Position numbers and translations under genes: made by a program | The notes under the pieces: model-generated | What the model saw: the letters and a program-made list of their open reading frames with translations, nothing else | What the model was told of the DNA's origin: nothing | Databases searched by the model: none | Source of the DNA: Ceratodon purpureus | Taxonomy: Eukaryota; Streptophyta; Bryopsida; Pseudoditrichales; Ditrichaceae | Direction: 5' to 3' | Length of the DNA stretch: 64,000 nucleotides | Assembly: GCA_014871385.1 (NCBI GenBank) | Contig: CM026423.1 | Coordinates: 23,754,906 to 23,818,905 of the forward strand | Shown here: piece by piece, positions 29 through 49,665 of the stretch | Layout of the letters: the number at the start of each line of letters is the position of its first letter | Numbering within the stretch: the first letter of the stretch is position 1

Positions 29-57
29 AAGGGGTATTTAAGTAATTATGGACAAAA
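29..57 (+). repeat. Left terminal inverted repeat of element C
   Basis: The 29-bp end begins AAGGGGTATTTAAGTAAT and matches the reverse complement of 15819-15847 except at three positions. It is preceded by GCAT. Confidence 0.75.
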
Positions 58-265
58 CGCTCAATTATGGACTACTTTGCATCATCAGTAGACGTCCAAT
101 TCATGTGTTATCCCTCAAATTAAAAGACAAAGATGTCAAATATTATGAAAAAATGCATTCCGTTTACAAGGGATAAATCATTTGAGTGAATTTATTATAA
201 TGTTGAATAGAGGACATCCCAGTCCCACTGTCATGGCCGAATCTCTCGGCGAGTGGCTGACTGAG

Positions 266-320
266 AACCCTAAACCCTAGAAACCCTAAACCCTAGAAAC
301 CCTAAACCCTAGAAACCCTA
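266..320. repeat. Short telomere-like repeat array
   Basis: There are three and a half copies of a 16-bp unit made of CCCTAAACCCTAG plus AAA, close to the plant telomere repeat CCCTAAA. The array is only about 55 bp and lies inside element C, so it is an interstitial motif and not a chromosome end. Confidence 0.8.
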
Positions 321-610
321 TCCTTAGAAATCTATCTGTTCTAATAAAAGGAAATACTTGCTCTGCAAAATGTGGATCTGTGAAGTGAAAGCGGGTGAAG
401 GGAAGATCGTCGGCGACCCGCTGAGTGGACACGACTGCCAGGCATCTCACATTGGGGTGTCCGTCTGTGAGGACTCCGGAGTCGTCGTTTAGAATGAACA
501 GTATTCACGGTCACAACAAATGGAAGTCCTTTGTAGTCGGCTGGCCGCCGACTAGGAGAGCCAACCTCTTCCTCACTGAACCGACCTCTGGAATCTGAAA
601 TACATATAAA

Positions 611-907
611 GATGATGAGGAAATAAGTCCTAGTCCTCGTGATAAAATGATGAGTAAGCTAGTCCTAGTCGGCTATCAGCCGAGTAGGAGAGTAGGGGCT
701 ACTAGTCCTAATGATGAGTAAATAAGTCCTAGTCCTAATGATGCAAATGATGAGTAAGCTAGTCCTAGTCGGCTACCAGCCGAGTAGGAGAGTAGGGGCT
801 ACTAGTCCTAATGATGAGTAAATAAGTCCTAGTCCTAATAATGCAAATGATGAGTAGGCTAGTCCTAGTCGGCTACCAGCCGAGTAGGGGAGTAGGGGCT
901 ACTAGAC
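611..907. repeat. Three tandem copies of a 100-bp unit
   Basis: The sequence repeats with an exact 100-bp period (for example TGAGTAAGCT at 651 and 751, TGAGTAGGCT at 851). Each unit contains a small dyad TCGGCTAYCAGCCGA related to the palindrome family found throughout element C. The array is subterminal, so it may hold transposase binding sites. Confidence 0.85.
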
Positions 908-1081
908 TAGGTCGACGTTGGCAATTAGTCGTCCAGAAAACCCTAGAGAAGTGGATTACTAGAATGTTTAGCAGTTTACTAGACGAACTCGTCGGCTGTC
1001 CACTGTAGAAGAAGGTCGCATACTGTAGAAGCAGGTCGCATACTGTAGAAGTAGTCGCATATTGTCCAATATTTTGTCGTT

Positions 1082-1603
1082 ATGGTGAGGCGTGGTAGCA
1101 ATGTGAGACCACTGGGTTATCAGGAGTCACCGGCTGACCTCGAGGAGCTCCGGCCATGGTATAGAGCGGTGGTCGCCCGTTCTCGCAACACCGCCATTCC
1201 ACGTTTCAAGTACATCACACGCCTTCTGCAGCCAGGTGCGGTGTGGTTTTGGAGTATTGCTCACACCATAGAGTTGTTGGAGATCGCTGACGCTTCCGGC
1301 ATCGCCTTCCCACTGACATTCGAGGAGTCCGAGGAGTCTGAGGAGTCCGAGAGTGTTGGCAGCATTCACTTCAGCCACACAGGGGAGGTGTCAACGCAGA
1401 CCATGTCAACGGCAGGGTGGCTCCGCATTGTTGGCGAAGCATACGACAACTTGGAGGGTGCTGGAAGTCGGTGCTCTGGCCAAGATCAGTGGTGCGGAGG
1501 GAACGCAAGCCCGCAGTCCACGTATTCGTCGTTTGGATCCGTGCATCCATCCGTCGATACTGGGTGTAGTGCTGTCCGAGCCAAGTCTACTGCGAAGGAC
1601 TGA
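1082..1603 (+). CDS. Hypothetical 173-aa protein
   Basis: This open frame starts with ATG and ends with TGA. I do not recognise the protein. A run of Glu-Ser-Glu repeats lies near residues 80-92, and the C-terminal third is Ser/Gly-rich and low in complexity. It sits between the subterminal repeats of element C and the convergent DUF7869 gene, so it could be a small accessory gene of the element. The frame may also be a chance opening, because GC content is raised here and no homologue is present in elements A or B. Confidence 0.35.
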   Translation: MVRRGSNVRPLGYQESPADLEELRPWYRAVVARSRNTAIPRFKYITRLLQPGAVWFWSIAHTIELLEIADASGIAFPLTFEESEESEESESVGSIHFSHTGEVSTQTMSTAGWLRIVGEAYDNLEGAGSRCSGQDQWCGGNASPQSTYSSFGSVHPSVDTGCSAVRAKSTAKD

Positions 1604-2237
1604 TCGCTTCATGGCGTTGGCGACCATCTGCAGCTTTTTGGTTTTTTGGCTTTAGGGTGAATTACTGTGTGTTAGAACTGTCCAGCTCGTTTTCAATAGA
1701 GCTGCTTCACACACTCGGATAGTTGTAGAATTCATGGTTAGTATTTGTTACTGAGGCTTTAGGAGTAGTGGCATCTCTGATGTATACACAATACAAAGTA
1801 ACATGTAAAGGGCGGAACACTACCGTTGTACTCCGATAAGAATATAATGAAATGGATAAATATTTTTTCCCAGTTTCTCAAAGCGCATAGTGGTTCTACC
1901 AATGTTGTGGAAAGCGTCGGCGGGCAGCCGACTAGAGTAACAGTGTCCACCGTAAAAATCACAGGCCATACAATATAGACCTGCCTCACAAAGTCACCGT
2001 TCATGATGCTTATCTAACATGGTTAGAGGCATCGGCGGACAGCCGACGACCACCGAAGAAGGAAAAGTAAGGTATCAGAACAACAAATAGAAGACAAAGC
2101 GTAATACATGACTAGTATTGGGTCAATGGTAGAATACAATTCTTATTCGAAGGAATCACAGTGTTTACAATATTCAACTATAACGTTTACAGAGGAAACC
2201 ATCACTAGCTACATCTTCTACAGCTAAGATCACAATC
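1604..2237. other. Non-coding interval between convergent genes
   Basis: I see no gene here. The stretch holds two copies of palindrome family 1 (1916 and 2031), and a third starts at 2238, abutting the stop codon of the DUF7869 gene. It probably contains the 3' ends of the two convergent transcripts. Confidence 0.6.
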
Positions 2238-2253
2238 GTCGGCGGGCAGCCGA

Positions 2254-5200
2254 CTAGTCTTCCTCCTCGTCATTCCAGTTCATCGAGATTCCATGCGATT
2301 CGAAGTTTGCCATGGCAGCAATCACAACATCTTCGGGTATTAGATGGGACTTTGGGGGCCCCTCATGCGTAGTTTTCTTGGTCCTATGAGTGTATACAAC
2401 GGATTTACACTCCACCCACTCCGCAAGAGTCAACTCCCTTTCCCACCGTCTTGTCCAGCACTCTCTCGCAACCTTCTTCTTACCTTCCTTCTTGCCCTTC
2501 ATCGGAGTCCACCATTCAACCTTGAACTTACCGTAATTAGGACCAGGCTCTGTTATAACAGGCTCTATCGCCCTACCCATCCAAATGGGTAGGTGGTCTT
2601 CCTTACACGGACGACAGAAAACCCAATCGCCACGTAAAACGTCACGATATGGGTTAAACACAGACTTCGGCCTAGAGTTTTTCGGACCACAGAAAGGATA
2701 GGGCTCCACCTCATCCTCGTCACCGGGACGAATATCCGGATCCGGTATATATTCGTCCTGTGCATCGAATGTGGTGACGTGGTCCCGCTTCCAGTCTGAG
2801 ATAGGCCAAAATCCTTCCTGTAAGGTGGCGGAATTGGGGGGCAGTGGCTCGTTGACCTCCTTTAAAATTCGCTCCCAATACAGTACATATGGTAACATGT
2901 CTTGTGCGTATTTCTTATCCCGAGCCATGCCAGTTCTCCAGTACTCAATGTACTTAGATAATCCACTTTTAATGAAATTTCTCTTCTCTGAACACTCCGC
3001 TGCCCTTGCCACCTCTTTATCCGCGTTCTTCTTGCCCTCATCGACTTCAACACTACCCCATAAGTGCTTATGAGGAACCGGTTTGGGATCACCGACGGGC
3101 AAACGTGGTTTACCCTCTTTGTCTGCCCTCCACATTTTCACGGGTTTGCCAGGTGGAAGCCATGACGGATCAGTTGCACGCTTCTTGTACCTCATTACGG
3201 GCCACCCCGCATCCTCCCCATCCTCCACCACATAGAACTTAAAAAGATGCATTTCACTGTGACCTTCTATCGCATTACCCCCGTCGTGATGAAAATCAGC
3301 AACGTAACTTTTGAAGTCTGCCACTTCCTGAACAACCTCTGGAATAAAGGCAACTGTCTTCTGAGAATCCATGAATGCCTTCATAAGGTCTGCAAGGCAG
3401 TATGTGTTCTTTCGCTTAATGAGTTTCGATAGGTGACTGAAGTGGGCGTCGATGTCCTCATGTGTGTGTCCCACAATCAGGAAACCAACTGTAACTTCCT
3501 TGAATATTCGCCTCGCCGTCAGCAACGAGCAGAATGCTAGAAGAAACCGGTTCTTGTTGTCCTTCGCAGAATTGTCAAGCTGGAGATACAACTTCTTCGG
3601 CAAAGGAACAGCAGGCCTACCAGGCAGAGGTGGAGTGAGTGGCTCATCTCTAGAAGGTGGAATTGAGGGGATGCAACGTGACGATCCATGCATTAGCGCT
3701 GCAAAGAATTCATTCTGTGGCGGTGCCTCGAAGAGTGCTTTTGACTCCCGGACAGGTAGTCTCTCCAAGGCACGGAATACCCTGCACAACGAGGAGATTG
3801 TGAAATTTGGGTCTCCTGGCCACAGGGCAGTTGCATAGTGTGCGTAGGCGCCATCTCCGTGACCGTGAGTCAGCATTCCAGTACAGGAAATTGGAATTTG
3901 ACCAAGCCCTGCCGTAGCCTTCGTGATACGTTGCATGCGGGGGATCGCTGTTTTCGATGTGTCCATCTTATCATGTATGATGCATAGGAACTCAGTAGGA
4001 CTCTGTATAGATTGGGTTGTCCATCCGTAATAAATGTTGCGACAAGCTCGCTGATAGTTCAAATGCCTGGTCCTATCCTCTGTCAAGCTCTGCCACTCGT
4101 CCGACCCTCTAGGATACTTGGCAATGAGTTCAACGAGGAAGTCACACTCAGTGCACTTGGAGAAATTACTTCCTACGGCCTTGACCTCAACATTGCGGAA
4201 GTACTCCTTCCTCATGCGACTAACGGAGGACTGCGAAATCAGCTTCGCGTTGCACTGCTCATTGACCTGAATAGCACAGAGTGAGGTCGATCAGTTGGGA
4301 AGTTCGTCATCCAGTCGGCGGGCAGCCGACGATAGTAATCAGTACAATTCAGTAAACTATCCAAAGTGAAAGAAGATGAGGAGGAACTTACGGCGTTGGC
4401 CATTTCGCGTATGTGATTCCAGTTCATCGCAGACGGGAGTACTTTGAGCGCGGCCACTCTCTTCTTGCCAATGATCTGAAACTCTTTGGGCATTTGGTCG
4501 GCATTCTCATTAACGATAGTGGTCAACGTCGCGCGGGCCTGGATTGTGTGAATCTGGGGACGATGTACACCGGAATTTCCGTGACTCCCACTGACACGAC
4601 CACTTCGGGCCGCAGCCTTGTAGCTGTAGTACGCGGATTTCGATACTCCGTGAATGATATACCACGCCACTTCACATACGTCAACGTTCGCAAGAGTAAC
4701 ATAGAGCTTCCGCTTGCCGGGTACAGTATGTAAGTGCCCTTGCACAGCGAAGGACATCTCTCGCCTCGCCTGGAATGTTGTTGCGTAAAATTTACGCCGA
4801 ATACTCACAGTATCTTCCCATCTAAAAGTCTGGCAACATCGGTCCTTGCAACAGCGCTTTGAGCTCACTAAGCGGCATTCAGCAGGGACAACCATTCGAC
4901 GAAGCTTAGTGGAAGAGACGTCATCTTTTTCGCGGACTTTCCTCCGCACCGATCGATAGGCATTCTTCGGGACACCATCCAGACCATCGTCCGCGTCGGC
5001 GTCTGCTAAATTCTCGGAGCAGTAAGTAATTATATCAGAGAGAAGGTGACCCCCTTCTAACCGAGTGTGAGTCAGACGCCATCTGAGAGTTGTCATCTGC
5101 AGATGATCGTCTTCAGAGACGAAGAGAACCCCAACCTCTGTATCCCCTAGGACTTCATCATCACATGCCTCGTCCGGTAAACATACTTGAATCATTGCTC

Positions 5201-6164
5201 TACCACGGACTGATAGATCATCATTAAGAAGTTCGACATACCGATTTCTCCAGAGGTGGCGGTGAGGATAAGAAGCATCTGGAGTGGAAGGAGTACCCGA
5301 GGTCCCGGAATCCGGACCCCAACAATGATCATCTGTTTCTACGTCGGATTCCCCTTGTTTAGACACATCGTCGTCACTGCTGATATTCATTGGAGACCTA
5401 GTCCCCAGATCCTGCTCAGACGGAGCGGAGTTGCTTTCATCAATTTCTTCATCTTCGTTCCCCAAGTGAGGCTCCGTCGGCGGGCAGCCGACGGGACATG
5501 TGCCAGCCAACGCGCCGTTCACAAGTGGACAGACCTTGTATCCACTCCAAAGTACCAATCGCCCCACAGCACACCCGATCGTTAACACATCCGGTAACTC
5601 GCAGAAAGCAGGTGTTTCAGAGAATTCTGGATTGACGGACGACACTCTCACTATTAGAAAGAAGCTGTGAGGAATCAAGAACCCCTCCCACGTTCCTTTA
5701 GGAGAGCACTCCATAATGACTCCAGCGGCAACACAACGCTTTGAGCCTCCGGATTCCTCGAGGAGCGCAACTTCCATCTGCTCTGCGAGGTCCAGGAATT
5801 CTTGAACGGGCTTGACATCTTCTTCAACATCCGTCGGCGGGCAGCCGACGGCCTTGATGTCATCGTCTTCCACCTCTCCGAAAGGCCTGAGGTCGGCCGC
5901 CTCCCACAATATCATTTGTCCTAAGCAGTTGCTCAAGGACTTCGCACCCTCATCCGGAAATGGTATATTCATTTCCATGCTGTCTGAAACCTCAATCACT
6001 TTTACCACCACCACTATAGGATCAAATTCTACAACACGTTGGATCACTGCCCTGCCTGCATAATAGAGCCCAGAATGAGTAAGGGCCACGACAACGCCCT
6101 TTTTAACCTTCCACCGCCCTGATCGGCCATTCCTTAGAAACGTCTGGATCGGCTCTACTTCCAT
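2254..6164 (-). CDS. DUF7869-type protein, candidate transposase of element C (two exons)
   Basis: Two exons, 6164-4392 and 4266-2254, join in phase 0 across a 125-bp intron (donor GTAAGT, acceptor ATTCAG) that contains one palindrome; the product is about 1261 aa. The N-terminal half holds two or three SH3-like segments (G-x-A...IQ-V...LP...ILW) and a Cys cluster (CCKDRCC, about residue 438). After the splice comes a FSKCTECDFL motif, then the core LQLDNSAKDNKNR (about 818) and GHTHEDID (about 856). From memory these fit the DUF7869 family, whose Asp/Asn/His-rich core suggests an RNase H-like fold. Two palindromes (5476, 5833) lie in frame in exon 1 and encode VGCPPT. I chose the first in-frame ATG at 6164; the frame stays open upstream to about 6254 without an ATG, so an upstream exon is possible. 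The transposase role is inferred. Confidence 0.75.
4267..4391 (-). other. Intron of the DUF7869-type gene carrying a palindrome
   Basis: On the minus strand the donor is GCC|GTAAGT and the acceptor ATTCAG|GTC. The family 1 palindrome at 4314-4330 sits in the middle. Splicing restores one frame across both exons. Confidence 0.8.
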
Positions 6165-7172
6165 TGGATAAGAGATGAAGACCTCGTCGGCGGACAGCCG
6201 ACAGGGTCGACGGGAAGTGTCCCCGCCGACGGAGTAAAATGTATCCGCCGACAACGAAGACGACTCGGCGGGCAGCCGACGCGGATCCTACGACTCGGAG
6301 TGTGCACAGAAATAGCATCCGCCGACGATGACGGACACGTCCGCCGACAGAAATTGCAGGGGACCTGAGTTGAGAAGCAGTATGATGTCCCTAACCTGTC
6401 CAATCAGAGACTCCTCTCAACCGTCCAATTAGAAACGATAGACGAAGACAACAGAAACGGCAACAGAAGGTGCGGGACAGTTAAGCACATGCGGGAATAA
6501 TAACGGTCCTCTCAGGAAACGTGTGCGTCAGGAGCACTCTCAGAGGGAATCGAAAGTGCAATGACAGAAATAGAATGAAGTATGCGCATCTGACGGGGGG
6601 TTAGTTATGAATTCCCAGGAGTACAAATTGGCGCCAGAATCGAATTCAATTTTGCGCGCCTTGGACAGATCAAGATCCCATCATGGCGGCGAGATGCCCC
6701 CGCCGTCACAGAACAATGTTGGTTCATTATTACGAATTTCAACGTGGCGATTGGACAGCTGTCATATCACATGCCCAGGCCATCATGACTGGGTGACGGA
6801 TTGAAAAAAAGTCAAAAGACGTCCCATCATCATCCTACGTGGCGTGATGGGACGGATGTTAGGGATGACCATCCATGCATGGATGGTATGTACATAGCCA
6901 TACGTCATGACCCATCGGGCGTGACGATTCAGTCTCGGGAGGTGGGGGTCTGCAGGGTATACACCCGCCACTCCCGACATTTCCTCCTCATTTCCAGCCT
7001 TCTCTTTCTCAGCTCTCTTTTGTCCTCTTCTCAGCGCTCCGCAGAGGTCGCGTCGGCTGCTAGGTTTTTCTGCGTCGGCTGCTAGGGTTGAGGGCGTCGG
7101 CTCCTTCACCTGCGCGCGTCGGCTGCTGTTCGAAGGTCATCCGCCGACGGTCAAAGGCCATCCGCCGACGAC
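6165..7172. promoter_or_regulatory. Divergent promoter region of element C with a 20-bp perfect palindrome
   Basis: This interval separates the DUF7869 gene (minus) from the ParB/methyltransferase-like gene (plus). At 6868-6887 there is a perfect 20-bp palindrome centred on CCATCCATGCATGGATGG, unrelated to palindrome family 1 and suitable as a binding site for a dimeric regulator. Two family 1 copies (6186, 6264) lie next to the DUF7869 start. No clear TATA box was found. Open frames here look accidental. Confidence 0.5.
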
Positions 7173-10100
7173 ATGGCAGCCTCCGAGAGTGGGTAAGTTG
7201 TCCAGTCGGCTGTCCGCCGACGCTCCCCTTCTTGAGTCCTTCAAGTTTTCAATTTCTCGCCTGGGTTTGTCCCTCCCGTCGGCTGTCCGCCGACACCACC
7301 CCTGCTTTTGTCCTTCGTGTTTCTGTTTTCTCGCATGAGTTTGTTCCTCTCGTCGGCTGTCCGCCGACGCCACCCCTGCTTTTGTCCTTCGTGTTTCTGT
7401 TTTCTCGCATGGGTTTGTCCCTCCCGTCGGCTGTCCGCCGACGCCACCCCTTCTTTTGCCCTTCATGTTTTGTGTTCTATCGCATGGGGTTGTTCCTCCC
7501 GTCCGCTGACCGCCGACGCCACCCCTTTCTGAGTCCTTCATGTTTTGTGTTCTGTCGCATGGTGTTGTTCCTCCCGTCGGCTGACCGCCGACGCCACCCC
7601 TTTCTGAGTCCTTCATTTTTCTATTTTCTCACATGGGTTATTCCCCCCGTCGGCTGTCCGCCGATGGGGAGGGCGTGTCCATCCGCCCCGTCGGCTGTCC
7701 GCCGATGGAGTGAGAATCTGATGGTCTAATCTTGTGATTCTAATTTTGCAGGGCGAAGGTCGACTCCACCGCAAAACCGAATGGGTTACGGTGGCTCTGT
7801 GACAAGCTTGTTGATCCTGAAGTAGAAATACTCGCACGGGGCTTGAAACCGAGGGTGACATTCCTCGCTGATTCGAAGATAACGGAGTGGGGCATCACCT
7901 GGCGTGACACTCCCATGTCGCTGGGCTTCGTGACCAAAATAGGTCAGAAGCAAATGGCAGGTGGACCAAGATTTGAGATTATTGGTGCCAGGGAATGCGA
8001 CGATGAGGACAACGTGTGCTTGGTGTTTGCATCGGTTCCTGTCACGGAGGGCACACCAGTGGACTGCTTCGCGGTTGTAATTCCGGTTGAGAAGTGCATG
8101 GACGGCTTGTGCTCTAAAGAAGTACAGGATGCGGCTACTTGGGGCAGGGGCGAGAACATAGCTGTTGAACAGATACTCGACGTGATTGATACGCTCGGGG
8201 ACAAAGTGATGGAAGAGAAGACGAAGAACTTGGTTAAGCCTGCAGCAAAGAAAAGAGGCGGCCGCAAGTCTGCTGTAGAAGCGGGCACTGGTACAGTCAC
8301 CCCCGAGACCGGAGAGACACAGACGACAGGGGAGTCATCGAGAAGGAAGAAGGGAAAGGCAGCGGCTGCTGAGGGCGAGGGTGGGAAGAAGAAAGGTGGG
8401 AAGAAGGAAGAGAAGAAGCAGACCGTGGCGGAAGCTCTCATGCTCGCAAACAATCTTACTTCCAAAACAAAGGACACCGACGTCCTTGCCATGTACCAGA
8501 CGTTGGAGGAGGGACTTGGGCCCTGCTTCCCCAACGGGCAACGTGCCCTTCCTTGTCAGATTCCATATAACAGGATACACATAGCTCCCGACGAATTCAA
8601 GTACAGAGCGATATTCAGGAAGAGGCAGGATCAGATAAGTCTTTTCTACAAAGGACTTGGAGCAATCCGGAAGAAGCCCGAGCTGTACTGCCTTCCTATG
8701 AGTGGTGACCCCAGAGTAAAGGATCCAGTGACGGGCGAGATTAAGCTTAAAGGCTTGGAAGGACTTCTTCGACCTTGGATGGCCCTAAATATCAAGTATT
8801 CACTTACACTGGATGACGGCACATCTAAGCAGATACCTTGGTATGAAGATGAGGGCATCCACTGGTACATAATTGGGGGCCAGCACACGTTTGAGGCTTG
8901 TCGAGAACTGGGAGAGAAGGAACCACTGGACTCTCCTATGCGGCAGTATTACCTTAACCACGACATCATTCCTGTATATGCTGATAACAAGGATACCCTC
9001 ATTAAGGTCTCTAACGCATTAAACATCGAGGTGAAGGATAAAGTCGCCGAAGTAAGTTTCAGGTCCCAGCTGGCGAAGATGCGCGCCAAATGGATCGAGC
9101 GGGGGAGGATCGACAAGAAAGATGACTACAGCGCATGGAAGGTAATTCACATCTTCCTCTTTTCCTGTTGTTTCCATGTAGTTGAAAGTCGTCGGCGGAC
9201 AGCCGACGCTCAAGTGGTTCTCCGTATTGCAGAAGTGGGATTTATTTATCAATGTCCTTTTCTTCTTCCTTGCAGGAGTTCTGCAAGGAGTACCTCAGTC
9301 CGATTCTCGGAAAGTCCCCTACGTCGCAAACCTTCAAGTTGCCCTTAGTCTTCGTGTCTGACGAAACATACAACGAGTGGCAACTGGTGTTCGACGCCTG
9401 GGAGCAGGGGAGGATCATCGGGGAGGACGGTCTGAAACCAGGATTTCCCCCAAAGCCAGCCCGCCGGGACATAACATTCAACGACATGCAGTACGTGATC
9501 GGTCTTCGGGACCACGAATGCAAGAGGCTGGCGAAGGAAATTCTGGACCTTAAAGTGTACGTCAAGGTCACTGGGAAAGAGGTGGTTCAACGGGATGGAA
9601 CATCAGTGGAGAATTGGTGTAAGCGTGTGAAATTCGAGTATATTGTCCGGAACGAGCTCATGTGTATTTACAGGGGCTTTGCACTGAAGAAACCAGGGAC
9701 TGGGAAGCATATTGAGTGGAGCATGGATGACTGGAATTCCCTTGAAGTCGAGAAGGGGTTCAATGATACAATGGTTAGTAATATTCGGGCTGACTTGGAA
9801 GATAGTCCTGAGGGGAAGGAGTGGCTTAAGGGACGGAATCATCCGCTCACGCCGTCGCAAGGGCCAACACCGGAATTCTTCAAAGACATTGTGCAAAAGT
9901 ACTGGAAGTCGGATGTGGACCAGTCTTCGCAGTCGTCTGTACAGTTCGATGTTCGGATTGCAGAGGACCTGGGTGAAGTGTGCACAGCTCTTGACGTTCG
10001 CGGAGCATTCTCCTTCAACAAGGCGCAGTATGAGATGTTCGTGGTCTTTGGCTACGATCCAGCGGGAAAGGAGATGCCTAACATGCGACAACAACACATT

Positions 10101-11926: not shown

Positions 11927-12144
11927 ATCAGGCGGTGGCCCAGTCCATCTTTTAAATGCCTGCATTGATAATTTAATGTAGTGATCGGGCTCTAGGATTG
12001 TGTTAGATGTATTTACTGCCAAATATGAAATGCCAAGTTGTACGCTTTCCCTTTTTTCAAATAATGTTGCTTGCAGGTCGGCTGTCCGCCGACCGTCATC
12101 CTAACCGTCACGTTTGTCCTCTGCTTCGTTTTCTGTCACTCCAG

Positions 12145-12914
12145 AGTCTGCGGACAAGGAAGTCCATGGAAAACTTCACGAAGATAGACCCAGTGCAGTT
12201 CTGGAGCAGGGACCTCCACCTCTGAATCCACTTCACATAGCCCCGGAACAGGCTGGTACTCAGGTACACGATCCAGTGCTGAAGTACTTTCTTGTTCTGG
12301 ATATTAACGGCCTGCTATTAGTCCAGACGAAGCAGGGTACTAGGTGGAGTACTAAACTTAGACCGGGTTTAGAGAGGTTCCTAGAGTTCTGCCTGGATAA
12401 TTTCGAGGTGGTCTTCTGGAGCTGCGTTCAGGAAAAGAGGTTTCAGATTCTGTGGAAAGCGTTGCAGCAGCGCTGTCCTCGTCTAGATGCCGAAGTGCGC
12501 TACAAGTTCGACCAGAGTTTCTGCGAGACTTGCGTACATAAGGCTAGTAGGGAGTTTTATTTGAAGAGACTCCAGACCCTCTTTGACCTCGATGACGGGC
12601 TGAAGGGGACGGGGGCGTCTTCAATTAACACTCTCTTGGTTGATGATTCCCCTTATAAGAATGTTGCAAACACTCCTTGGAACGCTGTGCACCCTACACC
12701 ATATACCTTCGAGTTGAAGGAGTCGGAAAGTAAGAGGAATTATCTGCTTGGAGAATTGATTCCTTGGCTTACCAGTTTGAAAGAATCCAAACTCCCCGTG
12801 CCCGAGTACTGCCAGAAACATTCCGAATTCGGTCAGCGTCGTCTGTTTCCGGGGGATGAAGCTTATACTCTTTTCTCTCCACACATTGATTGCCCTAAAC
12901 GAAAGAGAACATAG
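12145..12914 (+). CDS. FCP1/HAD-like terminal exon a
   Basis: This open exon follows a CACTCCAG acceptor and ends with TAG. It encodes an FCP1/SCP-type HAD domain: LVLDINGLL, then RPGLERFLEFC, FEVVFWS, and LLVDDSPYKNV near the end. In active FCP1/SCP enzymes the first motif is DLDxT; here the second Asp is Asn, so phosphatase activity is questionable, although a D-x-N-G-L-L variant occurs, as I recall, in a plant subfamily. There is no in-frame ATG before the domain, so an upstream exon is needed. A donor GAG|GTCAGT at 11919, at the end of the ParB-like gene, would join in frame (phase 1), which would fuse the two. That splice is inference. Confidence 0.65.
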
Positions 12915-13171
12915 TAGATGTAGAAACTGTTTTAGAGAGCATGCACATGATTCAGTCGGCTGCCCGCCGATGGGATCTTCATGTATTTAGACTTTTTCAG
13001 TAAATAAAGTTTTCCTCCTTTTAAATATATGAGAACGGAACTCAGTGTCGAGACTGTGTATTCTGTCGTGGGTGTCTTATTGTGTCTCCATTTGTACACT
13101 AGAGCAAGTATGAATTGTGAGCATGCGATTGATCACCCATGTTTTCTTGGAATTTGTCCTTCATTTTTCAG

Positions 13172-34559: not shown

Positions 34560-34778
34560 CTGCATTGACATGGGATCATTATGGTGAAGATTAGAAAGAT
34601 ACCAACAAGATATGTGAATGAGATTGTTGCAGAGGCTTTCTTGAACATATTGTCATTTCAAACTTCAGAAACATATCACATGATGACATTTAGAAACAAA
34701 AATCGGAAGCTAGGTAAGGATATTGATCGGACAAGATGTAGAAATAAAATCGATTGTGGTGAATGTGTGTGAACTTAC

Positions 34779-39200: not shown

Positions 39201-40318
39201 CCATTCTATCTGATGCCTCATTCATGACATCCCAAACCGCACTTGCAGACTGCTCATCCTCGGGTGTGTTGTTGCGGTACGCCGTGGCTGCTTCATCGGA
39301 GGCCACAGCGATTTCCCGCTGTAGAAAGATAATTAAAACTTAGGAAATTCCATAATTATTGAATTATAATGAGCAAAGAGAGAGAGGAGGTAGGACTTAC
39401 TCGGTACAAAAATGCGATGAAAACTTTAGTTGTCAAGGGAAACCACGAGGGATTAGGGGGCTTGTTCTTCAAACATGCATCAAATTCTTGAGGACTGAGG
39501 AGGTCTCTAAATTCCTCCAGCTTCATCATTCCAAATGAGCGGATTCGAAAGAGTTTTGCAGGGAGATTACTCTTGACGTGGTCATTCTCAGTCGACCTGG
39601 AAGCAAAAAAAAAACATAAGATGAATAATACAGATTCGATAGGATTACGAATGAAAGAACAGGAAAGAAAACACAAGTCCATACCAGTTGATGTCATGCA
39701 TTGCGTGAAGAAGATTGCCAACATGGCCGCGAGGGTCGAGTACTATGCAGTGCGCGGATATGTGCCATGACGGGTCCTCTGCATGGTGCTTGTTGATATG
39801 ACGAAGCCATGCTGAGAGGCGATGGTTACCTTCCCATACAAAGAACATCTTCCCGAGAATTGCGACCACTCTTCGTCTCCGTGAATCTCATATTCAAAAG
39901 CATCATTCGCGTCCCTCCATAATGGGCTCCAACTGGCCATGACCTCATCCGTAACATCTCTTGTCTGCTCTTTATTGTTGTACATAGAGATGTACATGAC
40001 GCGGTCCCCATCTCTATATCCCTTAACAAACTCCCGCTCCAAATGCTGTACCCCCATTTCGCCCACTGGTCTAACCTTGGCCATTGGAATCATCCTGCAT
40101 AGGGGCACCAACATTCGGGACTTCTGCGATGGCTTGATCCTGAGGTTGTTGATGACGGCTATAGAGTCGACCTTGTGTTGTGTGCGATGTTGCAATTCCC
40201 CTTCTCTAGCACTCTTCAAGTTTATCGGACAAGATGGTTTGACCAACACATCCTGTGATTGAGTAACCTGCCAAAAGATGTGCAAATTAACAATAGAATC
40301 GCAATGAACGAAAGTCAT
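36278..40318 (-). pseudogene. ParB-like / N6-N4 methyltransferase-like gene of element B (one-base frameshift)
   Basis: About ten exons on the minus strand match those of element A in order and intron position. The first ParB exon is 40267-39685 and contains MFFVWEGNHRLSAW. A single missing base near 39870, just before this motif, shifts the frame; with one base added the exon length also gives the phase-2 intron seen in A (after HDINW). The C-terminal module has LIIADIPENLPV at the motif IV position, PWRGPREKA as motif X, and FEWTAGTG (about 36920) followed by GRHIIACEED as motif I. The intron inside TAGTG-G is in the same place as in A. The end reads FDPRALVFVDEE, like FDPRVRIYLD in A. Apart from the frameshift the exons look open. 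Confidence 0.78.
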
Positions 40319-40602
40319 ACAAAGAAGACAAGTATATAAAAGAAAATAACAATATAAATTTATATTGTTAACTCTTTTGTAACAACCAAAATTATCATCT
40401 GAGCTTGCTAGAACTATCTACGTGATCCACGACTATAGTACTCCTTAGACTTTCTACAGTTCCAGTGACGGCGCCTCCTCCAAAATCGCCTGGTCTGTTG
40501 GACAGGGCACGGCAGAATTGCCGGAAGGGCAAAGACCACATGGGTTGGCCTCCTCACTCTAATAGGCGAGGAAGGAGAGGGTGGAGACATAGGTGGTGAG
40601 CC

Positions 40603-43600
40603 CTATGGAGGGGACGTGGGCATGTAGCCCGGGGAGGTAGGCTCATACACTGGGGATGTAGGCATGTACATTGGAGAGGTAGGCATGTACTGTGGAGAGT
40701 GGACCTCCAGAGGTCCACTTTCCACACCTACAGGGTTTGTTACATCACAGGTACAATAGTGCTGATCAAATGAATCCGATAGATCGGAAACATTGATCAC
40801 AGAAATGGGGGAAGTGGCGGACATCTCAGGAGCATCGGATGATACCTATAGTAGAAGAAATGAAGTGAGGGTTAAATTTTACTTTTATAGGAGTAGTAAA
40901 CACTGAATACTAGATGCACAATTGAACTATATAAATCTGTGAAATTCATGGTCATTGTAAAACGAATGAAATACCTCAGTTTCTACTGGCGTCGGGTCTT
41001 GACGTTCGCTCCCCAAATTATCTTCCTCGGGTTCCTAATTCATAAACAAAGTAATGAATATTAGAAAGAACAGCCACCATGAAGACTTAAGTTTCACTTA
41101 TTCCAACTAATTAAAAAACAAACCGAACCATCAGAAGGCTCCCGTAGGGGTGAGCCTCTGCCAATTTCATTATTGAACAAATTAAAAAGCTTCACACACA
41201 TTACACAATATCACCACTTGGCCCCATTTGCAATTGCCGACAAAGGCTTGGGGCGGGGCAATAATCAAAAATTAAAAAAAATTAAAAGACTGCAAATATT
41301 CATAGCAGCAGCAGTAGGGAAGTGAAGCCATCAAACAGCGCACACATTGATCCATATAATAACTTGGCCCCATTTGAGAATCTAAGCTCCCGGCCTCTGT
41401 CGTTGCCGACAAAGGCTTGGGGCGTTGCAATAACGAAAAATAAAAATAAATTAAAATCTTACAAATATTCAAAGCAGCAGCAGCAGCAGCAGGGAAGGGA
41501 AGCCATCAAACAACGCACACATTGATCCATATAAAAACTTGGCCCCATTTGAGAGTCTAAGCTCTCGGCCTCTGTCGTTGCCGACAAAGGCTTGGGGCGG
41601 GGCAATAATCAAAAATTTAAAAAAATAAAAAGACTTCAAATATTCATTGAGTAGCCCCATTGAGTAGCCGAAGCGTCCATTGACAGACGCATGCACATAA
41701 AAGAACTTCCGAAGCCAAGCTCCTCGACCTCTAACTCTCAACACTGCACCAGCGGACTACAGCCGACTCGACCGCCTCCAACATACACAACAACACTAAA
41801 TAAAATAAAACGGAGCTACTCTAGCAACCGTCTGCACAACCACTGCCGAGATCTCTAACCGAATAGTCCTTTAGCCAGCAACTTCACAACACGGACAACG
41901 TCACATTCCTTCACACTCCTGCCTACCAAATCAGTTGCACCTCGACGTCAAACTATTCTACCCATCACAGCCACAGCTTCGCTCAAGAACCAACTCCCGA
42001 ACAACCACCAATCACCATAAATCACTAAGCAGCCACCAACTTCCATTGGCCGGGAATTCGATCTCTCACCCACAGCAATCCCAAGAGCAAGCGACCAGGC
42101 AAGCGACTAGCCCAAGCAGCAGCAGCAGAGAAGATAACCCCAACACCGATCACCCAACACCCATCTCAACTCTCGCGCCCCACCCAGACTCTCGTAGCAT
42201 CCTCGCATTCTAACCTGAATTCAGACCCTACCCAAACCGCAACCCACAAACAAAACCCCCACCCCAACTCTCGCACCTCCACCCCAACTCGCAGCATCCA
42301 CTAATTCCAACCTGAATTCAACAAGTGCCCAAGCCGCAACCCACAAACCAACATCTTCCAGAAACAAACAAACCCGCAGCTCCCACAAAGAATCCAAATC
42401 CGCATCCCCCATCCTCCACGAAATTCAATCAGCAAGTAGTACCTCGTCGTCGTCTTCAGAATCACGCTCCTCCTGCAGACGTCGACGTCGAGGCACAACC
42501 TCCACTTCCGAATCCCGCCCACCTCCTGCAGAGTCGTCAACCGTCCCATCGAATCCCACTCCTCCATCATCGACGTGAAGATTCTCCACCACCAAATCCC
42601 CGCCTAAGTTCTCTCGCCCAGCGCCTCCTGCAGATTCGCCACCCGCCTCCATGATCGCCGCTCGTACTCTCCTGGCACACCCACGAAGTTCCTCGCCTTC
42701 CTCACTCTCAACTCGAAATCTCTGTGTGAGCAACTCTCAGGGTCAAGTCGACTACCAAGGCAAACAAGGTGTACTGTGAGATCTCGAAATCTCAAAAAAC
42801 CCTATCTCCATGGCAGTGTGAACTACATGCCGTATCAAAGTCAATTCATGGAGCTCGTTTGACTTTTGACAAGCAATAAATATTATATTCATCAAATTCA
42901 CCTGAACTAAACGATGTGGAAGTAGACCGCTCGCGGCCCAGACTCAGTGCGGGATGTCCTTGTCTAATTTAATGCCTACAGATTTTTTACGGGTTCTCAC
43001 CCGCTCTCAACAATAACTTGCAAACAAAAAGCACCCCAACTAATTACTCATCATTGGAATTAACATGGAATGTAGAACGGATATTTACAGTCTCACTCGT
43101 CTGCAATTACATAAACATTTAAGTCATATCTCTACCTCTCCCTTTAAGTCCTTGTTTATTTTGATTCATTGATATTATAACTTTAATATTTTTTTAAAAA
43201 CAGTGCTTAATGAAACCTAAATCTATACACGCAAACACATATGGCATTTGTTTAGACAGTGTAGTACTCTAACCTGTTCAGAGAGACAGTCGTTGTTGGA
43301 TTGTGAATGCATCTCCCTTGAGCGAGAATCCTTCTTCCCAAACGAAGGCTGCGGGGACTCTACTCTTTGACTACAATTAAAGACTAATTCTTCCGTCATG
43401 GCCTCACCTGCAACTCCAATTAAGTGTACCTCCTCTTCCTGATTTTGATTCTCAACAAAGGTGTTCTCTAAAAACTCTTGCTTCTCCTCCACTATAGACT
43501 CTAGAATGAGTTTACGAATGCTAGAAACCTTCAAAGCTACAGGCAGACCTGCTCCTCTCCTTTTCACGGGTGCACTCAAATGATCACCTTTAACACCTAC

Positions 43601-43732
43601 CTTCTTAAGTGATGCTCTCCTCTTTCTAGCTCTTCTATTCGTAAAATCAGTGCTGCCAGGAATCCTTCTCTGTTTAGGAGTGACATAGGTCGAGGGAGAT
43701 GGCCCTTCACTCTGCTTCATGTGTCTAACCAC
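40603..43732 (-). CDS. Basic protein with RNA polymerase II CTD-like heptads (three exons, about 253 aa)
   Basis: Exons 43732-43274, 41034-40975 and 40845-40603 join in phase 0 (CAG|GTTAGA, ATTAG|GAA, GAG|GTATTT, CTATAG|GTA). The first exon is basic and Ser-rich (TNRRARKRRASLKK). The last ends with four heptads Y-[ME]-P-T-S-P-[MVGP] just before TAG, matching the Pol II CTD repeat YSPTSPS at Y1, P3, T4, S5 and P6. In element A the equivalent region is the N-terminus of the ParB/methyltransferase protein, so this may be the front of the same gene cut off by a nonsense codon; the frame stays open and Ser/Pro-rich after the TAG. Which case holds needs transcripts. Confidence 0.5.
40606..40689 (-). 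repeat. Coding repeat: four CTD-like heptads
   Basis: Four 21-bp units encode Y-x-P-T-S-P-x without interruption. Positions 2 and 7 vary (Met or Glu; Met, Val, Gly or Pro). The DNA units are near-identical, so the array may be recent. Confidence 0.85.
41217..41650. repeat. Three tandem copies of a 146-175 bp unit in an intron of element B
   Basis: The unit contains CTTGGCCCCATTTG, GTTGCCGACAAAGGCTTGG and an AGC-rich microsatellite (GCA repeats). Copies start near 41217, 41363 and 41538. It lies in the 2.2-kb intron of the heptad protein gene. Confidence 0.8.
41651..43273. other. Intron sequence, C/A-rich, no gene recognised
   Basis: The DNA is rich in CCA, CAA and AGC motifs and is open in several frames with low-complexity Pro/Thr/Gln or Ser/Arg translations. 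I see no domain, TIR or TSD. It may be a captured promoter or UTR fragment or another inserted repeat. Confidence 0.5.
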
Positions 43733-44340
43733 AGGAAGGACACTCTCACAAAAAGACTCTCTGGAGAACTTCTTAGCAGCTTAAATACCTATAACGTACA
43801 ACTATTTTGTTACAACCCTAAGTTGATATACAATCTTAACCACTGACACATTGTCTACCCTCTTCACATTCAGAGTACCAATAACAAGTCTATATTGAAG
43901 TAAAGTTTAAAATATCAACCTTCAAATATAAATGAGAAATCCTAGCACCCTATAATTTAAAAAATTTGAATCAAGTGCTTCAATGCATGCCCCTTTTTAT
44001 ATTCATTGTTTTCAATGTAGAATTTAAAAGACGGCTCATTCTAATCTTATAATACATCATCACAAATAGAATCCGCTTCACGATTCAAATTATTAAAGTA
44101 GAGTTCTAAATATCTTACCTGATAAACTTAGACCTGCAAAAAGTGGCATTGTAATTAGATAGCGCCGTCTCTCCTAAATCATACATTCGTTACGTTACAG
44201 GATGAATCATTCTCCAGCTGTTCACACGGACATTCCAAACTGAATAAAATGATCAACAGCGATGCGTCATTCCTCTCACTTCGCTCTCGTGATACCGCTT
44301 TGCTAATACACTCTCTCTTCTCCTCTTTCCGCCTGCAAAA
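43733..44340. promoter_or_regulatory. Divergent promoter region of element B
   Basis: The interval separates the heptad protein (minus) from the transposase pseudogene (plus) and corresponds to 21770-22273 in element A. It is AT-rich and holds no gene. Confidence 0.45.
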
Positions 44341-47300
44341 ATGGGGATGGTCTGTCTGTATGCCCAAGGCATAGGCATCCCTCTTAGGTTTCGCGTAGAT
44401 GACAATGGTCTAGCTACAGTTTCCTCTCTTCGCCTAAGTCTCAGATTCCATTTCCGTGAGGATACCATCAGTATAGAGTAGGAGATTTTCGATGACGTTA
44501 CTACCGAGGTTACCCACACCCTCGGGCAACCTTCAGTGAGAGATGAGAATAATATGTTGCAGTGGAGACTTTTCCTTGGATCATATAGAGTCTACGATCA
44601 TACTGATTCTCTGATGGCTGCATCCACTGAGATCCTCACCCCCCGTCGCTCTTCTACTTGAACAATTCAGACTCCCTTACCTCGTGATGTCAAGGTCAAA
44701 GTCCAGCCCGGTACTGAGACATCAGACATAGAGAAACCTCCTCCTCTGACAATCATTTCTCTCTCTTTTGATGACGAAGTCAGTCCCGTCAAGTTGGTGC
44801 CTAAGGTCCACGCTGATGCTCCTCCTTCCAACGTCTCTCCTCCATTGTCCCAGGTTACAGTTAGCATTGTTCTGCTCCTTCAACGGCTTGCAAAGGCCCA
44901 GGGGCAAAAAACATTTTGAAGAACATAGACTATTCCACTATTAGACACGAGAGAGTAGAGTACTTGCCTGCGAAGTTTGATGGTCCCGTTCTTTTTGAGT
45001 TGCCCCCAGCAGCTGCAGGATCCTCTAAGCTCGCCGCCAAGTATATGCAGGGAATGGACAAACGATACGACGGACACTTGTGGACCAAGACCATCACAAC
45101 AAACATCAAAAACGACTTCGGACTCTCTTTTCAAAGTTCCACCTGCGTCGGATGGCTGCGCTGCACCAACGAGGAGTGTGACTTCCTAAAGCATGTTCCC
45201 AAGATCTTTGAGGTTAACGAGACTGAGTTTGTAGGATGTACCCTCCAAGCTTTTCTCATGGATGAGCCGCCTCCATCTGATTCCACGCTAGTGTGCAAGG
45301 TATGTAAAGAACCTCCATCATGTGTAGCTACATGCGAGGCTAAGATTTATTACGTTGTGGGCAAAGCAAATCAGACTAGAGCTTGTATTCACATAGGAAC
45401 ACATGATCATCCAGTGAAAGTTGGAGACTACAGAGACTCTAAAGCAGAGATAAGTAGCTTAATAGAAGAGCAGGTAGAGATGAACAACAAAGCAACAAAG
45501 AGCGCCGTTGTCCTGGAGGCAAGCAAACACCTCATCGGGAGCTATCTGCTACAGCCCGAGGATGCACCACGGTCCACTGAGGAAGCTGACGATGGAGGAG
45601 CTGGTTCCTGTTCTGGATCGATGCAAAGACATGGCGTCACCAAACATCCGCAACAAAGTCGCCACCTTCAAAAAATTCAGAAGGTACGGAATCATGGACG
45701 GTATCACCAAGCTCCGTGGAAATAGTCTGTGGGCGTATGTCCAAGAGAATAAGTTTCCTGGTCAGAGAGCTATGCGTGACAAAGTCTTCGTCTTCAAGAT
45801 GTCGGAGGTCGGGCCGGGAAGTGGTGTCGACTTGGTCAGCCGAATGCAAGGTGGAGGAGATTTGGAGAACGCATGGATCATGTTCGACCATGTAAAACGT
45901 GTCAAAGACAAGTCGACGATGGCGTGCCATGTGTACAACGCCACCTACTGCCGCGTGATGACAATCGCCAGTTGCGACATGCAGTCCGAGGACACGCAGG
46001 CCCAGCTCGTCTTCTGGAAAAACCTGAACCTGGTCATGGAGATCAATGGCGTTGCAGCGCCGAACTTCAAGGGGTTCATGGCGGATAACGCACAGGCGAA
46101 TTGGAATGCAGTGCGAATCCTTTACGGCAATGGCAACAAAGAGGACCCAATGGAGGACCGGGAGAGGTCGTGCTTGTTCCACTGGACACAAAACATAGTG
46201 GCGTATACGCAGAAGCACTTCCTCGAAGAACTCTGGGAACAGGACAAGAAGATGTGCACTCAGTAAAAGAATGCGACCAGCATGGCAGAGGCGGACACTC
46301 TGTATCACGCATTGCGAGTATGGTGGGCTTCCACCGAGGTCGTTGGCGAAAGCGGACTCATCAAACTCGATCAGTGGATTTCATTCTGGCACCACCGCTT
46401 CCGCCAGTGGGGGGGATTCATGACCACGGTATGATTTCCGCACTCTGTTTTCATGTTTTTGATACTGCTTTCCTATCTCTAACCTACAAAACTCTAATCC
46501 GTGAATCTAACGTCACCTACTGTCTATAGTGCAGAAATTCACGGAAGAAGAACTCACAGAGATGCCGACGTGTAACCTCGCCGAAACAATTCATAACAAG
46601 TGGCTCGAAGCTTCAAGAAACAACGGGAACGACCTCTACGTTGCTACTGTGGACGATTTCGTTCGGGCTTTTCTACAAGTTGTTAACTACTACCAGATCC
46701 TCAAAGGTGACGTCGGCTGAACAGGACCATCGAAGAAGGACTTGAGGCTTCGGATGGCGGAACACAACGCGAAGAAATGGGAAAATCTTAAACTGCTCGA
46801 AGACCCCATGCTCGGTATGCCAGGAGCGGATGAGTTCTGCACCCGTCAGCCTATCATGTCTGGAGCGGAAGTGTTTGGTCCACAGAAGCGAAAAGCCGAC
46901 ATTCCCATCGGAGCTGACGAGGAGTCTCATCACCCGGACAAGACAAACTTCTCACGCCCGAGAGGCCCAAGACGTGCCGTCAGAGCTCGATCTATGCAGA
47001 TGCCCGTCATTGTGGAAGACGACTCCGAACATGACACCGAGGTAGAAGGTACCAAATCTCCTGCCCAGGAAGTTGATTCCGCTTTACCTTCACTTGTGAA
47101 CAAGGGCGCCATTCGCCATGTCAACGCGGTTGAAGAAACCGAGGTCAATGTGAAGGAGTGGCACATTTCGAGACTTCACAAACTTTCTGCGTAGTGGTGC
47201 TGGGCCCAAAGAGCTGAAACGAAAAAGAAGTGCACTGAGAGAATTATAAAGGGTCACCATTGCACAGCTGCCCCAACCTACACTGGGCTTTGGACTAACT

Positions 47301-48027
47301 ATCGCAGGAACACAGTTGAGAAGACCGAGTTCTTCTTCTGCTCCGACGATATACTACGCTGCGTGAAAGGTTCTAAGCGCAAATGGATAGCACACTACTC
47401 AAAGGACCTGGAATTCCCTTCCATTCCAGAGGTCTGGCCAGTGAAACTAGGTACTAACCTCAAACTTACCAAGATTCTTGCCGTCGAAGCAGCAGGCTTT
47501 CAACTTCCGCCGAAAAAGTCGGTCTCCTCAAGACGCCTCTTCTCCTCTGTCCGCCACCTGTAAATCTCAGCTCGGTGCCAGTCCCTGCAGACGCTGACCG
47601 CTAGCCAGGCAAGAGAGACAGCAAGATGGTGACGCGCACTGCGACTCGTCCCAATCCGGCGCAGCGACTCTCCACGGTCTCCTCCGAGTCCCTCAAAGCG
47701 AGCCTCCGTTCCGTCACCATGATACCTGAGCCGGGCCACGGTTGCATCATTGGGCTGGATTCGGGCGTCGCTCCACACATCACACGGTACCAGATTACCA
47801 TCAGTTCTTACCCTGGTTGCACTTGCCCAGCATTCAAGAAGACGATGACTACGTTCCGAGGTAGGACTCAGTTCACGTATTGTAAGCATCTATACTATAT
47901 ACTCTTGAAGGTCTGCAACCGTGATCCCGAAGCCGAGCTTTTCATCCATGCGCCTACCTTTAGCTTCAACGAGGTCAAGCTACTCCTAGAGAGTGGAATC
48001 TTAGTTTACCCCTTGGCGAAGAAGTAG
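44341..48027 (+). pseudogene. Degenerate Mutator-like transposase of element B
   Basis: The sequence parallels the transposase of element A from the N-terminus (RVDDNGLATV, SLRFHFREDT, EILTPRRSST) through the zinc finger (GTHDHPVKVGDYRDSK), the DDE core (MACHVYNATYCRVM, FMADNAQANWNAVR) to the SWIM finger (CTC...YCKH). It is broken by stops near 44479 (TAG), 44659 (TGA), 46264 (TAA), 46718 (TGA) and 47192 (TAG), and by frameshifts near 44910 and 45580. The intron seen in A is kept near 46430-46530. It is clearly inactive, but is useful for comparison with A. Confidence 0.88.
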
Positions 48028-48278
48028 GTAGCCTTTCTACTTTAGAACTCCCATTTCCACAATGGCCATTGATCACGTAGTGAATGATTTTAGTAATATC
48101 CCATGTACTAAGTCAGCAATACAGAAGCTGTATTGACTTTTTCATTATAAAGGCTTTGTCGTTCACATTGATTGCATTCTATTTCAAAACATTCGATCTT
48201 GAACAAGTGCACTATATATCTCGTATCCCCTGACATGTACCCTTTATTACAGCAAACATATACTTGTTATTAGATGTC

Positions 48279-48731
48279 CTAATCTTCGAACCTAACACGT
48301 TTAGGGTTGCCCACTACACGATCAGCAGGACTGCCAGCCTCTGACTGTACTACAGGACAAACTACATTCGCATTCACTTTCGTTCCCACACTTGGAGCGT
48401 GTCCTTGGTATGAACGTTTCAGCAATGGCCCACCTCCACGCCTCCGATACACTGATTCCCTGGAATAGGTTCCCCTTGGGATCTTTCCAACCTTGGAGTA
48501 TGCATGTGGTTGCAAAGGCACATCTGCGTCCTCCTCTAGCACTATGATATCATCCGATTTTTCTGAACGTAGAGGATCAGCTCTTACATCCGGTTGTACG
48601 TCAACATCCGTTGTCAAAGGTCGCCCTACGCTATTGGCCATCACGTCTTCTTCGTCCTCCACCTCAACATATGGTTGAAATGGACAAACATTGTCAGCGA
48701 GTGAAACAACAATATCTCTGACGTCTTCCAT
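48279..48731 (-). CDS. Conserved 150-aa acidic transposon protein (B copy)
   Basis: The frame is fully open from ATG to TAG and has exactly the same length as its homologue at 17333-17785. Shared blocks are the N-terminal MED, PHAYSKVGKIP, GTYSRE, PLLKR, VCPVVQ and PKRVRFED at the end. The upstream TTAAATA (48810-48816 on the plus strand, TATTTAA on the coding strand) and the nearby CACCAAGCATC are also shared with element A. It remains intact although the neighbouring transposase is dead, which may mean trans-mobilised survival, selection or simple chance. Confidence 0.73.
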   Translation of the reverse strand: MEDVRDIVVSLADNVCPFQPYVEVEDEEDVMANSVGRPLTTDVDVQPDVRADPLRSEKSDDIIVLEEDADVPLQPHAYSKVGKIPRGTYSRESVYRRRGGGPLLKRSYQGHAPSVGTKVNANVVCPVVQSEAGSPADRVVGNPKRVRFED

Positions 48732-48816
48732 AACCGCTGTCCCGCACTACGGAAAAGAGCTTCACAAAACACCAACATAAAAGAGGAAGAGACATTCCAT
48801 AATCTTATCTTAAATA

Positions 48817-49665
48817 TCGTTGAAGAAGATGCTTGGTGCCCTTGAAAATCGGCTTTTCATTCATTTAAAAGTTGTCATCCTCCTAAATAGAATGGAAAAG
48901 GATGGGGTTGAGCTGAAGTCATTTAGCATTTATAATTTTTTTTTTTAAAAAAAGAAAAAAAATGAAATCAGAAAAGCAAAAAAAAAAAAAAAAAAAAACA
49001 TTTATTAAAAATGAAAATAAAAATGATAAAAGTAAACAAAAGCAAAAAAAAATATTAAGGTTGAAAATAATATGAAGGAGATTAAGAAAATGAAAGAGAA
49101 AATAAAATGAAAGGACTCTTTTGACCTCTTTAACAAGATAGATAGAATATACGAAGTTAATAAAAAATACAAGACAATTTAAAAAAATAAAAGAAATAAA
49201 AAAGTTCAAAGGCATGTAGACTATGGCGGATGATTTCTAGCAATGTTAAGTAAATGTTACAATATTGAATGTTACTTGATCCCTCTTAAGAGGTTCAATA
49301 CCAATACATTTTAAGCAGTAATTTGCATATAAATGTGAGGAGATAAGGGGAATTAATGTTTGCCTGAACTAGTTAGAAGGAGCTGGAGCATAGTAATTGG
49401 TGCACGTAAAAAAATTAATCACCAAGAAAAGAGAAAACGAACTACAAATTCAATGAAAATATTGTAATTAGTCCACGGTTATAGGGTCAATTAAATTACT
49501 AAAATAAGTAACTTTCTAGAAATATACAGAGAATATTCGAATCTTCTATTTTTATATTTTATTTTTAGTAAAAAAAGTGTTATTTTTAGGTTCAGTCCCC
49601 CAATCTGTGCTCTCCGCTTTCCAAATCTACGCTCACCGCTCTCCGCTCACGTACAAGCTATGTCC
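48817..49665. promoter_or_regulatory. AT-rich right subterminal region and TIR of element B
   Basis: The region mirrors the left subterminal region of element A: A/T homopolymer-rich DNA, then CCACGGTTATAGGGTC at 49473-49488, then GCTCTCCGC and GCTCACCGCTCTCCGCTC near 49609-49649. No gene is seen; the translations are Phe/Leu or Lys/Asn homopolymers. Confidence 0.65.

Follow-up and report, generated by a model that had tools for sequence, protein, structure and literature searches.

Sequence-specific anti-silencing has been described for the VANDAL elements of Arabidopsis, Mutator-like elements (MULEs) in which an accessory gene, VANC, accompanies the transposase gene VANA (PMC5735166; PMC10398659). 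According to these reports, the motif bound by VANC21, YAGTATTAY, is dense in VANDAL21 alone and lies mainly in noncoding DNA, in tandem repeats upstream and within introns; VANC21 causes DNA methylation to be lost throughout the element, and VANC is far more variable than VANA (PMC5735166; PMC10398659). Here we describe three transposons, C, A and B, which adjoin one another in a 64,000-nucleotide stretch of Ceratodon purpureus DNA (the window, C3:23754906-23818905) and which each carry a large cargo gene and a set of short palindromes, here called tags. We favour, with roughly even confidence, the reading that the cargo gene encodes a self-recognition factor that would read its element's own palindromic tags, most likely in an anti-silencing role with VANC-like logic.

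VANC of VANDAL is the closest working system, and its signs recur here with a different protein and with palindromic tags. As in VANDAL, an extra gene lies beside the transposase, and short family-specific motifs are clustered in noncoding DNA, in tandem upstream and in introns (PMC5735166). VANC has DUF1985 and DUF287, whereas the cargo of A and B has instead a ParB-type box and a methyltransferase-like domain, and no Pfam match to DUF1985 was found in the cargo pieces scanned. The VANC motif is YAGTATTAY, whereas the tags here are palindromes of 14-17 bp. Also unlike VANC/VANDAL, a similar set-up here occurs in an element with a DUF7869 transposase, C.

TET/JBP genes, which ride on fungal KDZ transposons, were the analogy drawn in an earlier note on this DNA (the original prediction, made from the letters alone). 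Like the cargo of A and B, they are genes of DNA-modification type carried by transposons; their enzyme fold and transposon types differ from those here, and we know of no element-specific tags on them. Bacterial and phage ParB-methylase fusions (phage L009-L017; Bce_0392, as cited in PMC5512222) resemble A and B in having a ParB-type box followed by a predicted beta-class, adenine-type methyltransferase. Unlike these fusions, the A and B cargo has no detectable ParB domain, is intron-rich and runs to about 1000 amino acids. Our search of the openly accessible literature found no report of a ParB/methyltransferase cargo in transposons.

Three bounded elements and their shared layout

The elements and the features on which the argument depends are as follows.

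29-15847, no strand assigned: element C, 15.8 kb, with a GCAT 4-bp duplication on both flanks and an imperfect terminal repeat of about 29 bp
2254-6287, minus strand: C transposase, two open reading frames (ORFs), 2254-4290 with DUF7869 (PF25273, E 5.1e-44) and 4239-6287
7205-7706, no strand assigned: C palindrome array, 8 sites (at most 1 mismatch), mostly 73-75 bp apart, between the transposase and cargo genes
7752-11925, plus strand: C cargo gene, exons 7752-9141, 9276-10601 and 10736 to about 11925; 1301 amino acids, open, with a GGQHTFEA box
16390-34281, no strand assigned: element A, 17.9 kb, with a perfect 10-bp duplication, TTTCCAATCC, at 16380-16389 and 34282-34291
18047-21811, minus strand: A transposase, two long ORFs, 18047-19618 and 19619-21811
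23539-25465, no strand assigned: A palindrome array, 16 TGCCGTTGCCGGCA-like sites (at most 2 mismatches), upstream of the ParB-box exon
25558-30440, plus strand: core of the A cargo gene, 8 exons, 1043 amino acids, open, with a DGNHRLQA box in exon 1 and a predicted beta-class methyltransferase in exons 5-7
34843-49665, no strand assigned: element B, 14.8 kb, a decayed copy with flanks GAGAGGGTGG and GAGAGGCTGG (9/10 match)
36278-40267, minus strand: B cargo gene, with a frameshift just before the WEGNHR box and a methyltransferase domain above the Pfam cut-off
41234-41661, no strand assigned: B array, upstream of the cargo gene, a repeat of about 175 bp that holds two TGTCG-TTGC-CGACA palindromes
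44865-48027, plus strand: B transposase, interrupted by stops and frame changes

A, B and C are real transposons with defined ends and of two types, as had been proposed: ends and duplications were located for each (10 bp in A, 9 of 10 in B, 4 bp in C). Inverted repeats at the ends, also part of the original prediction, were clear in A (score 84, against a maximum of 34 in 200 shuffles) and B (63 against 39). In C the terminal repeat is only marginal, since its score of 40 barely passes the shuffle maximum of 37; the windows for all these comparisons were placed between a few and about 20 bases off the final ends.

The target duplications (8-11 bp being the Mutator-like range) and long terminal repeats of A and B agree with their proposed Mutator-like nature. 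Their transposases also gave weak PB1/GCM-like fold matches (none at E <= 0.001; model predicted local distance difference test, pLDDT, 56), and a SWIM-like CxC...CxH motif was spotted by eye, but the ORFs of A and B had no Pfam match to a MULE transposase domain. Among 7,998 database candidates scored, 67 were homologues of the second ORF of the A transposase. No relative of the A/B-type transposases was found in the viral scans or the prokaryote-genome scan, nor of the C transposase in the viral scan. With its DUF7869 domain, C does carry a different transposase, as predicted.

Each element has a large, intron-bearing cargo gene with a G[NQ]H[RT] box, again as first described; start codons are not settled in the A and C gene models. 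B is the decayed member, with stops or frame changes in both transposase and cargo gene and a TAG in a probable upstream cargo exon. In A, B and C alike, the coordinates place transposase and cargo genes in divergent orientation with the main tag cluster between them. The palindrome arrays and this shared layout, both missed in the original prediction, are a better pointer to function than the domains.

Palindromic tags in the window and across the genome

The C tag, GTCGGC-N5-GCCGAC, has 19 exact sites, all of them in C, and no exact site elsewhere in the window. Since 19, 11 and 2 sites carry 0, 1 and 2 arm mismatches, after which only background is seen, the tags have little decayed tail. 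All 30 sites with no more than one arm mismatch fall within C. A stricter pattern with 18 sites was not met once in 100 shuffles of the window. Each intron of the C cargo gene has one palindrome, and cargo exons 1 and 2 have none. A scan of viral contigs with the C palindrome gave 8 matches.

The A tag, TGCCG-N4-CGGCA, likewise has 13 exact sites in A and none elsewhere in the window. When up to 2 mismatches to TGCCGTTGCCGGCA are allowed, A has 21 sites, of which 16 precede the box exon and 5 fall in two long introns; none is inside the 8 modelled exons. The B palindrome is the A palindrome altered symmetrically. We do not claim a palindromic extension past the core: in A the signal is no better than marginal (best P 0.08), and in C it is limited to one of 8 flank positions (P 0.005).

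The search of the whole genome (362.5 Mb in 151 contigs) that the original prediction had called for returned hundreds of cargo-exon copies. There are at least 150 scored copies of the A box exon among 1,872 candidates, mostly with open frames, and at least 150 of the A methyltransferase exon among 1,716 candidates. For exon 2 of the C cargo there are at least 95 copies among 430 candidates, 91-100% identical. We read the surroundings of 40 A-type copies (A itself included), namely the 30 best-matching ones and 10 chosen at 60-70% identity. In 35 of the 40, the same strand carries a methyltransferase exon 2.5-4.6 kb further downstream, as judged from the 150 scored matches.

Within 1.5 kb upstream of the box exon, an exact TGCCG-N4-CGGCA occurs at least once in 39 of these 40 copies and at least twice in 36. 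TGCCG is the sole commonest 5-base arm in 33 copies; in L025, L051 and L069 it shares first place with a single site, in L068, L070 and L071 it comes second to an ACTGC arm, and in L067 it is absent. No arm rose above 2 in 60 shuffles per copy. In L068, L070 and L071, ACTGC-N4-GCAGT palindromes dominate the upstream arrays beside the TGCCG ones, possibly a shifted tag.

The A-type loci have 267 A tags in 60 kb upstream and 42 in 45 kb downstream (30 copies), and the 22 kb of box exons in the 40 copies have none. The two families do not share tags in the DNA read: the A tag does not occur in 43 kb of ten C-type loci, which hold 31 occurrences of the C motif, and the C tag does not occur in the A-type loci.

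One alternative gives the cargo an unrelated role and takes the palindromes for sites of transposase binding or transposition enhancement. Subterminal repeats bound by the transposase are common among DNA transposons, and C has sites near both of its ends (536-868 and 15323-15544). In A, however, no site with up to 2 mismatches lies outside 23539-29008, far from the ends, and in the A-type copies, read on the cargo side, tags crowd at the 5' side of the cargo gene. We regard this explanation as quite unlikely.

The arms of the tags are kept in A-type copies down to 60% protein identity, whereas positions and centres turn over. Between some A-type lineages the arms are constant while the centres differ. 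Centres were tabulated in six A-type groups (15 copies), of which three are uniform or nearly so (TTAA in 25 of 28 tags from three copies, GCAC/GTGC in 13 of 13 from two copies, and GCAA in 8 of 8) and three are mixed. The ten C copies have three shared sites with arms intact, two of them with varying centres.

These observations bear on the idea that the palindromes spread within each family without a protein partner, as short repeats that are selfish or hairpin-driven. In favour of it, the palindromes occur in introns, linkers and tandem arrays and are able to fold back. The constancy of the arms amid turnover of positions and centres speaks against it, as do the lack of tags common to both families and their absence from box exons, and we judge it improbable.

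The box exon itself is under purifying selection. The median ratio of nonsynonymous to synonymous substitution rates (dN/dS) was 0.07 over the 54 of 528 pairs that were usable (dS between 0.05 and 1.0), and by dS bin it was 0.16 (0.05-0.2), 0.07 (0.2-0.5) and 0.06 (0.5-1.0). The alignment and these ratios leave out seven of the 40 copies, six with in-frame stops and L025, the last without good reason.

The cargo proteins and their possible roles

The cargo proteins of A and B are homologous: 262 of the 937 columns in their alignment are identical (28%, E 8e-99), and identity in the box region is 40%. Their transposases are 65-86% identical in seven of nine aligned segments (62% and 43% in the other two), so that in this one pair the accessory protein has diverged faster than the transposase, as in VANC/VANDAL (PMC5735166). 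For neither the A nor the C cargo was a relative found at E <= 0.01, among 7,994 and 6,694 candidates respectively, drawn from 5.8 billion proteins, and viral scans with the ParB pair and with C exon 2 found none either.

The original prediction had placed a beta-class methyltransferase in all three cargo proteins, which held in part. The B cargo matches PF01555 at 33.0 bits (cut-off 26.7; E 7.6e-8) over the C-terminal third of the profile, and the A cargo reaches 22.8 bits, under the cut-off (E 1e-4). Profile matches in PDB for the A/B module were DpnA (6e-7), RsrI (6e-4) and CcrM (0.006). A profile of nine phage ParB-methylases detects both (E 8e-8 and 3e-7 in a three-sequence search), aligning over 182 columns in A and 195 in B; A scored 48, whereas none of 60 shuffles exceeded 28. 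On this homology the C-terminal module of the cargo can be assigned to the beta-class DNA methyltransferases, confirmed for B and supported for A. The C cargo gave no signal with PF01555, with the phage ParB-methylase profile or in comparison with A and B, and C was rejected as a methyltransferase.

The canonical catalytic form of motif IV, (D/N/S)PP(Y/F/W), is not present in the module; B has DIPE and A has EYPD. Eight of the nine phage ParB-methylases have DPPY, whereas A-type copies have [DE]xPDG, which is kept in 23 of 24 genome copies (A included; 49-100% identity), L075 departing from it. A similar DIPDN occurs in two phage-contig methyltransferases with full PF01555 matches (91 and 89 bits), non-DPPY variants that are otherwise intact:

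L021, 4947-5651: phage-contig methyltransferase with DIPDN
L022, 4464-5213: phage-contig methyltransferase with DIPDN

These two were found through a pattern built from A and B, and they therefore prove that the variant exists, not how frequent it is. Because the family conserves the variant and two phage contigs also have it, we abandoned the reading of motif IV as that of a dead enzyme. The methyltransferase-like domain of A and B might methylate DNA, read it or merely grip it.

If it methylates, the cargo could be an enzymatically active DNA methyltransferase, and its marks on the palindromes might serve, for instance, for protection, for control of transposition or as a label of self. The domain in A and B, a motif IV that is conserved and so not decaying, and the phage DIPDN enzymes would suit such a role. 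We nevertheless consider it unlikely, as the canonical DPPY is replaced, the phage examples came through the A/B-derived pattern, and C has no detectable methyltransferase.

The ParB part of the original prediction came down to the box. PF02195 had no match in the cargo pieces scanned or in the whole genome (a scan whose control was positive in 10 of 14 genomes), and PDB profiles gave nothing credible for ParB. Against phage ParB domains the C box scored 26.5, above the maximum of 19.7 in 200 shuffles, and the whole C cargo protein 27.6, above 22.1 in 60 shuffles. In A and B the best-placed match was again the box, but three of 200 shuffles scored as high. A profile of 33 A-type copies scored 21.5 and was exceeded by one of 150 shuffles. 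DGNHRLQA is among the most conserved stretches in those 33 copies, with its H replaced in two. A single-sequence fold of the A box exon was uninformative (pLDDT 36).

A palindrome cluster adjoining a gene with a ParB-type box is a plasmid-like arrangement, and the cargo might on that ground work at parS-like sites as a ParB-like factor for partition or replication. There was, however, no ParA among the Pfam matches of the ORFs scanned (a part of all ORFs) and no PF02195 match, and a chromosomal transposon has no need of partition; we think this very improbable.

Together, a recognition-type box, a methyltransferase-like domain and family-private palindromes in the control region argue for a protein that would recognise its own family. 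Under the self-recognition reading that we favour, the cargo protein, with its ParB-like box and in A and B also the methyltransferase-like domain, would bind the palindromic tags. These are concentrated in what is probably the element's regulatory DNA, namely the stretch that separates the divergently oriented transposase and cargo genes, as well as introns, and binding there would identify copies of the protein's own family. The most likely outcome would be that host silencing marks are kept off the regulatory DNA, which would allow transposase and cargo to be expressed. We put forward only tentatively a bolder form of this, in which two unrelated transposon classes would each have acquired a bacterial-type recognition gene for private parS-like tags carried by hundreds of copies, and the non-canonical [DE]xPDG methyltransferase of A and B would write or read a mark that counters silencing.

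Several points weigh against self-recognition. The C cargo has no significant protein similarity to that of A and B; the two are linked by architecture, not by sequence, and the case for a shared function therefore rests on layout and tags. The ParB assignment concerns only a short box, better supported in C than in A and B. It could also be the transposase, not the cargo protein, that reads the palindromes. Shared descent explains part of the tag sharing: the A-type sample of 40 contains the 30 closest copies, and the ten C-type loci, being 98-100% alike, carry little more weight than a single locus and are weak evidence. Just one tag is present in three of the 40 A-type copies, and a fourth copy lacks tags altogether; centres are mixed in most of the A-type groups inspected other than the uniform ones. 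A fourth C site, at window position 12077 (locus position 4301), is confined to C itself and absent from the other nine copies, and seven of the 30 C sites with at most one arm mismatch fall inside coding ORFs. B, a decayed element, has just two tags in one tandem repeat. Finally, the VANC motif is not described as palindromic in the main text of PMC5735166.

Further genes, neighbours and wider meaning

Downstream of its cargo gene, C has three ORFs on the plus strand resembling NIF/FCP-type phosphatases (PF03031):

12105-12914, plus strand: phosphatase-like ORF, E 2.7e-13
13133-14269, plus strand: phosphatase-like ORF, E 4.1e-9
14546-15256, plus strand: phosphatase-like ORF, E 2.2e-5

By eye, their DxD catalytic motif is altered to DIN, DIK and CVN. 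Element A has a 505-amino-acid ORF at 31887-33404 (minus strand) with a RING-like cysteine/histidine tail, seen by eye, and no Pfam match above the cut-off. A small ORF of about 150 amino acids, also noticed by eye, is common to A (17330-17785, plus strand) and B (48279-48746, minus strand); it lies near the transposase end, divergent from the transposase, and has no Pfam match. The probable exon upstream of the B cargo gene (40606-40689, minus strand) encodes four heptads, YMPTSPM YMPTSPV YEPTSPG YMPTSPP, followed by an in-frame TAG. They resemble the tail of RNA polymerase II, and the codons of the shared residues differ at third positions alone (by eye).

Outside the elements, an aldo/keto reductase exon (PF00248, 33.9 bits) at 34299-34652 (minus strand), between A and B, is probably host DNA. 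A long terminal repeat (LTR) retroelement with a reverse transcriptase domain and identical 300-bp LTRs occupies 51388-63270; it holds a 727-bp inverted repeat (99%; 53230-53956 and 54477-55203) bordered by G-rich and C-rich repeat arrays.

If the self-recognition reading is true, these elements would represent a second sequence-specific anti-silencing system, built on an unrelated protein chassis, present in two transposon types and carried in hundreds of gene copies. They would show how private DNA tags let transposons and hosts co-evolve. Their many natural pairs of protein and tag would be material from which a recognition code might be worked out and on which the action of a [DE]xPDG methyltransferase could be tested.

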